Shown here in pieces: positions 17,399 to 18,060 of a stretch of 64,000 nucleotides of DNA (position 1 is the first letter of the stretch; every line of letters starts with the position of its first letter). The stretch comes from Akkermansia muciniphila (GTDB taxonomy: Bacteria > Verrucomicrobiota > Verrucomicrobiia > Verrucomicrobiales > Akkermansiaceae). The notes beneath the pieces are model-generated. The model searched no databases, was not told where the DNA came from, and saw only the letters and a list, made by a program, of their open reading frames with translations. Made by a program: the position numbers and the translations under genes. Where the stretch lies: assembly GCF_900184965.1 (NCBI RefSeq), contig NZ_FXYA01000135.1, positions 1 to 64,000 of the forward strand. The letters are read 5' to 3'.

Positions 17399-17896
17399 TT
17401 AACCGATGCGGAACGTGATGCGCGCTTTGGTCATGTCATAAGGAGACATTTCCATACGCACTTTGTCTCCTACCACGATTTTAATAAAGCGCTTGCGCAT
17501 TTTCCCGGAAATATGGGCCAGCACTTCGTGCCCGTTGGGAAGGCGCACCTTGAACATGGTTCCTGCCAGTACGGCGCAGATGGTTCCTTCCACTTCAATT
17601 TCGCTTTCGGAGTTTTCTTCCTTGGGTTCCGATTTGCTAAAATGCTTTCTCCCCTTGGTGTGGCGTCCTCCGCCTCCTTGCGGGCGCTGCCTGTTGGCGT
17701 TACCTCCGGGACGGCTCCCCCCTCCTGTTCTGGGATTTCCCGGTCCTGCGGACTGTCCGGCCGGTCGTGACGCTCCTGTGCCATTGCCGGAAGACCGGGA
17801 TTGTCCGGGACGGTTGCCGGTGCCGGTCGGTCTGGAACCGGTGCGGGAATTCTGACCGCCGCTGGGACGGCTGCTGGATCTTGGATTCGGGCTGAT
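17399..17896 (-). CDS. infA: Translation initiation factor IF-1 with long disordered N-terminal extension, probable ATC start
   Basis: The C-terminal ~70 residues are a clear IF-1 S1/OB domain ([38 protein letters not shown]). IF-1 binds the 30S A site during initiation. The only ordinary start in frame is GTG at 17593, but it would remove the conserved first strand (IF-1 normally begins about 8 residues earlier) and has no ribosome-binding site. The frame stays open upstream for 101 more codons to a TAA at 17917, encoding an Arg/Gly/Ser/Pro/Asn-rich region and a short acidic linker ([14 protein letters not shown]). An ATC codon (17896-17894) follows AAGGAG by 6 nt. With that start the product has 165 aa. 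The IF-1 identity is certain; the extension and ATC start are inferred. Confidence 0.8.
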
Positions 17897-17901
17897 AGGT
17901 C

Positions 17902-17908
17902 TCTCCTT
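17902..17908 (-). promoter_or_regulatory. Strong Shine-Dalgarno before the ATC codon of infA
   Basis: Minus-strand AAGGAGA lies 6 nt (counting from AAGGAG) before ATC at 17896. Most genes in this window lack such a strong site. No ATG, GTG or TTG lies within reach in this frame, so the site decides the start. Confidence 0.65.
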
Positions 17909-17949
17909 GTAAGGTTAAATGAACGCGTGTGTGCAAATTTCGCGCAGGC

Positions 17950-17977
17950 GTATGATAGACCATATTTTCGCAAGAGC
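17950..17977 (-). promoter_or_regulatory. Probable infA promoter
   Basis: On the minus strand, TTGCTC (17977-17972) and TATCAT (17955-17950) are 16 nt apart. Transcription would begin near 17943, giving a leader of about 46 nt before the ATC codon. Confidence 0.5.
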
Positions 17978-18060
17978 AAGCCCTGAATGCGGAAGTTGCG
18001 CAATTAAACCGCAATTCTATGGAGAGGGACGGGAAAAAGGCCGGAAAAGAGAAAAAGTAT

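Follow-up and report, generated by a model that had tools for sequence, protein, structure and literature searches.

An infA gene of Akkermansia muciniphila with a strongly supported ATC start codon and a basic N-terminal tail, and the recurrence of AUH starts among its relatives

The window analysed here is a stretch of 64,000 nucleotides from Akkermansia muciniphila (contig NZ_FXYA01000135.1, positions 1 to 64,000), and on its minus strand lies the gene infA for translation initiation factor IF-1, between a divergent upstream gene that we take to be rplM-like and a downstream gene that is presumably NAD(P)H-hydrate-epimerase-like (Table 1). The window's genome, of completeness 99.99, gave one match at E <= 0.001 in a profile search with PF01176 and so has a single copy of infA. 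The sequence-only reading had proposed that the gene starts at ATC 17896, with AAGGAG 6 nt and an in-frame TAA 18 nt before it, and this arrangement was confirmed in the sequence, while the frame, the tail and the AUH codon (AUC, AUU or AUA; ATC, ATT or ATA in DNA) recur in relatives. The frame contains 165 codons, ATC included, and all of them are open. Its description as open for 101 codons upstream of GTG 17593 is right when counted from the ATC to the GTG, but counted from the stop the number is 107. That this GTG is the only ordinary start codon (ATG, GTG or TTG) holds for the stretch from the in-frame stop to the GTMF motif of infA, and, as had also been claimed, no Shine-Dalgarno (SD) sequence was seen just in front of it. 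At the window locus, a consensus promoter scan and an inverted-repeat search returned no promoter, no repeats and one terminator-like stem versus 1.7 expected.

Table 1. Coordinates of the infA locus in the window
Feature	Position	Strand	Basis
Promoter-like TTGCTC-16 nt-TATCAT	17952..17979	-	by eye; weak; similar pairs in several related leaders; leader about 50 nt
In-frame stop TAA, six codons upstream of ATC	17915..17917	-	sequence
Shine-Dalgarno AAGGAG, 6 nt 5' of ATC	17903..17908	-	sequence and Akkermansia comparison
ATC, inferred infA start codon	17894..17896	-	comparison of 134 loci: 62 with ATC/ATT/ATA, 71 with ATG
98-residue low-complexity basic tail, acidic linker at its end	17603..17896	-	composition, frame-0 purifying selection, low pLDDT
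IF-1 OB-fold core	17402..17602	-	TIGR00008, PDB matches, pLDDT
GTG, only ordinary start codon before GTMF, within strand 1; probably not main start	17591..17593	-	comparison across loci
infA stop codon TAA	17399..17401	-	sequence

The C-terminal part of the product is a normal IF-1. It matches the NCBIfam model TIGR00008 (infA) over residues 97-163 with 97.4 bits, above the curated cut-off of 61.15, and solved IF-1 structures in the PDB match the core (best E 6.9e-23). In the structure model the block-mean pLDDT is 92-97 in the core and 40-58 in the tail, so the tail is probably disordered. The tail (residues 1-98) is composed largely of 22 G, 17 S, 13 R and 11 P, and carries 17 K/R versus 4 D/E with a net charge of +13; each of the 61 aligned members has a positively charged tail, with net values from +2 to +19. 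The first strand of the fold is predicted at residues 101-109 and GTG 17593 encodes residue 102, hence the earlier statement that a start at this GTG would delete the first strand was overstated: the tail and about one residue of the strand would be lost, and the remaining 64-residue form still scores 95.7 bits against the same cut-off. The sequence comparisons strongly support an extended IF-1, and the infA product is most likely one protein of 165 residues in which a normal OB fold is preceded by a basic, probably disordered tail of about 98 residues.

The tail itself is very probably a translated protein, since dN/dS is well below 1 in frame 0 alone and the variation is biased to codon position 3. 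Stops and frameshifts in the extension were looked for in the A. muciniphila clade and none was found: all 11 distinct sequences read through without interruption between the ATC and the fold, and their lengths (294-321 nt) differ by whole codons. In four pairs within the clade the frame-0 dN and dS were 0.21/0.70, 0.14/0.41, 0.16/0.58 and 0.13/0.71, and for the pair L001-L011 (0.21/0.70) the other two frames gave 0.32/0.28 and 0.30/0.30; over frames 1 and 2, dN was equal to or above dS in 6 of 8 comparisons. Over 112 codon columns of the alignment, 36 first, 26 second and 71 third positions were variable. The view that the extra codons are low-complexity Arg/Gly/Ser/Pro coding sequence rather than random sequence is thus borne out by purifying selection on the tail in frame 0 only. 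Third positions of codons 2-8 were never variable (0 of 7), whereas 71 of 112 were so in the tail as a whole, and these frozen positions after the ATC look as expected of an initiation region constrained at the RNA level. In contrast, the clade is not uniform in the start codon, which is ATC in 11 and ATT in 1 of 12 loci.

Relatives were collected by PF01176 matches, which were obtained in 72 of 76 genomes at genus level, in 253 of 260 at family level, in 137 of 141 in the order set and in 284 of 288 in the phylum set, as well as in 26 of 27 genomes of genus g8 (five of the 26 with a weak second match only) and in 3 of 3 of family f6. The start codon was read in 134 loci, 117 from the 260 genomes of the family and 17 from the families f3-f6; 16 loci of family f2, L182, L049-L078 from the phylum set, L200-L279 from the named collection, duplicates and unfetched genomes stand outside this count. 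The AUH position was set by the reading frames in the alignment together with fixed N-terminal patterns chosen by the analyst. The start was ATC in 51, ATT in 9 and ATA in 2 loci (62 AUH), ATG in 71, and unclear in one (L162, family f4); the ratio of 62 to 71 is not a frequency estimate, the sample being non-random, with g8 searched in full after it had looked AUH and the large genus g3 represented by 4 loci. In Akkermansia 15 loci are AUH and 40 ATG. AUH is the sole type read in g8 (20 loci), g184 (7), g4 and g186 (4 each), family f6 (3), g183, g185 and g187 (2 each), and g6, g7 and g181 (1 each), and ATG is the sole type read in g5 (8), g2 (6), g3 (4), f3 (7), f4 (5, plus the unclear one) and f5 (1). 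The two forms are homologous, as L014 (ATG, MSPQPSPSNNRG) aligns beside the window clade (ATC, ISPNPRPSNRP). The core-gene tree, which is short (195 columns) and weakly resolved, with 58 of its 130 inner branches open, requires at least 6 changes of the AUH/ATG label.

In 14 of the 62 AUH loci (10 in g8, 2 in Akkermansia, 1 each in g184 and g185) the stretch from the in-frame stop to GTMF is free of ATG, GTG and TTG, which leaves little room for a standard start; from the stop to 14 codons before GTMF the same is true of 39 of the 62. An ordinary start codon inside the extension in 9 of the 62 loci counts against the AUH reading. The pattern is not an artefact of draft assembly, since it is present in single-contig genomes: L096 has AAGGAG-N6-ATT with no ordinary start before GTMF, and L002, L003, L006, L011 and L012 of the window clade are from such genomes too. 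The comparison of sequences shows that an AUH start of infA is recurrent across the Akkermansiaceae and the neighbouring family f6, and initiation of the window's infA at ATC 17896 is strongly supported by it. In L182, a g8 locus that was dropped, the infA frame has a differing 5' part with no recognisable start, possibly an assembly join.

Within Akkermansia the presence of an SD sequence is tied to the type of start codon, AAGGAG preceding 15 of 15 AUH starts versus 0 of 40 ATG starts. Over all loci a 4-nt SD core was found in 36 of 62 AUH versus 0 of 71 ATG loci; as the rows are related and not independent, a Fisher p value for this contrast cannot be read as a real probability. The 26 AUH loci lacking this core include all 20 loci of g8, each with ATC, which argues against a simple rule of compensation by the SD. 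All 6 relatives searched, including one of the same species, contain the 16S-end pattern GATCACCTCCTTT, taken as a pattern match anywhere in the genome, and a search for GGATCACCTCCTT in the window's own assembly gave no match. RNAalifold on the 20 g8 leaders detected no conserved pairs, and we make no claim for the hairpins that individual leaders show on inspection. Leaderless transcription in g8 with the ATC at +1, suggested by TATTTTAAGTT before the ATC, was put aside because pairs resembling -35 and -10 elements lie further upstream by eye in several lineages.

The gene of IF-3, infC, was read in L280-L309, comprising 24 loci outside Akkermansia and 6 in it. Outside Akkermansia, ATC, ATA or ATT heads a basic N-terminal segment in 24 of 24 loci (by eye), and all but one of these, 23 loci, offer in addition an ATG in frame, 3-8 codons ahead of the conserved domain, so that an AUH start of infC is likely there rather than certain. 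In the 6 Akkermansia loci GTG is the likely start; in 5 of them it stands two codons before the position that corresponds to the AUH, where the window's genome has ACC. Such a GTG-started infC argues against a strictly paired infA/infC circuit in Akkermansia. Furthermore, infA and infC begin alike with AUH-Ala-Lys/Arg-Pro. The pattern ATHGCNARRCCNARRAA gave 12 matches in 9 related genomes, of which 7 are infA or infC starts and the remaining 5 are followed by just 13-59 codons, and its reversed control gave 3 matches. This likeness of the two starts may reflect convergence or a transferred start region.

It is known that IF-3 represses non-canonical starts, including that of infC itself (ATT in E. 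coli, ATC in Streptomyces), which is reported as autoregulation (PMC5472188), and the infC start is described as AUU in E. coli and B. subtilis alike (PMC1805508). IF-2 and IF-3 are reported to be augmented by IF-1 (PMC11497404), and a preprint describes IF-1 acting together with IF-3 in the quality control of the 30S complex (PMC13345285). The explanation that we consider somewhat probable is that an fMet start at the ATC, guided by AAGGAG, yields the tailed IF-1, and that AUH has been kept as a weak start under the stringency exerted by IF-3 and IF-1. The AUC would be deliberately weak: a 30S subunit carrying both factors would reject AUH when they are plentiful, and IF-1 synthesis would fall at high and rise at low initiation stringency, much as in the infC circuit. 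In Akkermansia, the strong SD would compensate for the weak codon. Less certainly, the basic tail might extend from the A site towards the mRNA and the decoding centre and tune start-codon stringency in the manner of eIF1A. The earlier suggestions of an infC-like feedback and of RNA or ribosome binding by the tail are both plausible by analogy. Such a feedback would be dispensable, since 71 of the 134 loci manage with ATG.

Alternatively, the AUC start and the tail could both be real and the AUC might merely fix a low rate of synthesis, without feedback responsive to the factors, which we regard as possible but rather unlikely. In accordance with this, AUG and AUH lineages exist side by side within Akkermansia (40 AUG and 15 AUH among 55 loci), the feedback step is itself an inference from sequence, and infA in the phylum often has GTG or TTG as its only start (in at least 12 of the 30 loci L049-L078), so that a weak start alone may be selected; the phylum as a whole may tend towards weak starts of infA. 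However, AUC, AUU and AUA are the class that IF-3 is reported to discriminate against (PMC5472188), GTG or TTG would do for a fixed low rate, and the combination of AUH with a strong SD in Akkermansia is unlike plain down-tuning. It is more doubtful that two isoforms are made, a long IF-1 from the AUC and a short one from the internal GUG 17593, as with the internal starts of infB. In the A. muciniphila clade this codon is GTG in each of the 11 distinct cores, ATG occupies that column in 26 of 40 ATG-start Akkermansia loci, and the short form retains nearly all of strand 1; on the other hand, V117 is likewise GTG in 11 of 11 cores, the residue across loci is a hydrophobic V, M, L or I of strand 1, the column has no ATG, GTG or TTG in 41 of the 62 AUH loci (an ordinary start in 21), and no SD was seen just in front of the GTG.

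The two readings that dispense with initiation at the ATC fit the data poorly. That IF-1 is made solely from GTG 17593 behind an untranslated leader agrees with the score of the 64-residue form, which exceeds the infA cut-off, but is hardly credible when dN/dS is well below 1 in a single frame, relatives carry ATG at the homologous place of the ATC, and the 14 relatives mentioned above have no ordinary start codon before GTMF. Entry into the tail by frameshifting from an upstream ORF has in its favour that other frames are open nearby; against it, the gap from the stop to the AUH is one codon in 14 and six codons in 16 of the 62 loci, and the frozen third positions beside the ATC resemble an initiation region, making this the least credible reading of all.

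The preferred reading, a weak AUH start governed by initiation stringency, could be extended to a two-factor thermostat of initiation in the Akkermansiaceae. In this extension infA and, outside Akkermansia, infC would share the AUH-Ala-(Lys/Arg)-Pro start module, the synthesis of both factors would be limited by the tolerance of the 30S subunit for AUH, and the IF-1 tail, as a bacterial counterpart of the eIF1A tail, would set that tolerance and close the loop on its own start. We hold this to be unlikely, and its probability was lowered slightly because 23 of 24 infC loci carry an in-frame ATG near the domain.

Among known systems, infC is likewise an initiation-factor gene with an AUH start, apparent also in the infC of related genera. 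It differs in that the gene here is infA, the autoregulation is a proposal, the start is ATG or AUH depending on the lineage, and infC of Akkermansia seems to use GTG. Chloroplast infA shares a non-AUG start, and changing UUG to AUG in the Chlorella gene is reported to have raised translation 300-fold (PMC9845219, citing Hirose 1999); however, UUG is an ordinary bacterial alternative and not AUH, and the passages on this gene mention no basic tail. In Streptomyces the GTC-started sigR is described as repressed by IF-3, its rare start being read as an IF-3 sensor (PMC5472188), but the codon is GTC and the product a sigma factor rather than a translation factor. The eukaryotic factor eIF1A, related to IF-1 by its OB fold, bears an unstructured basic tail at its N-terminus that influences initiation at near-cognate codons, and basic residues of this tail are reported to stabilise the closed complex and to promote the use of suboptimal start codons (PMC5756025). 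The window's IF-1 (P0001) resembles it in having a basic unstructured N-terminal tail (net charge +13, block pLDDT 40-58), which we treat as an analogy between the two tails rather than homology; its score against TIGR00523 (eIF1A/aIF-1A) is 24.8 bits, below the cut-off of 102.9. While AUH starts are already known for infC and UUG for chloroplast infA, an AUH start of infA is strongly indicated here on sequence grounds, and an open literature search, with most titles judged without full text, brought up no recognised report of an AUH-started bacterial infA or of its tail.

A recurrent AUC, AUU or AUA start on an essential initiation-factor gene besides infC would suggest a wider bacterial start-codon feedback. 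The ATG and AUH versions of infA within one genus would constitute a natural panel for tests of feedback, and the IF-1 tail is a possible bacterial model of the eIF1A tail. In addition, gene finders usually weigh ATG, GTG and TTG alone, so the annotated IF-1 of this prominent gut bacterium may lack residues 1-101.

Other IF-1 forms were met in the same searches. Most non-Akkermansia genomes of the family have a second, weak PF01176 match (L186-L194, about 1501-1690), and the seven weak matches translated, all from g8, encode a divergent IF-1-like protein, EPITTTGEVL...LPNGKKVIAHPAK...LEMTPFDFEKARIA, while the window's genome has its one match. In the 16 loci of family f2 (L032-L041 and L043-L048) the N-terminus is the ordinary short one with ATG and has no tail, and IF-1 there carries a basic C-terminal tail of about 40-55 residues, as if the tail had swapped ends.
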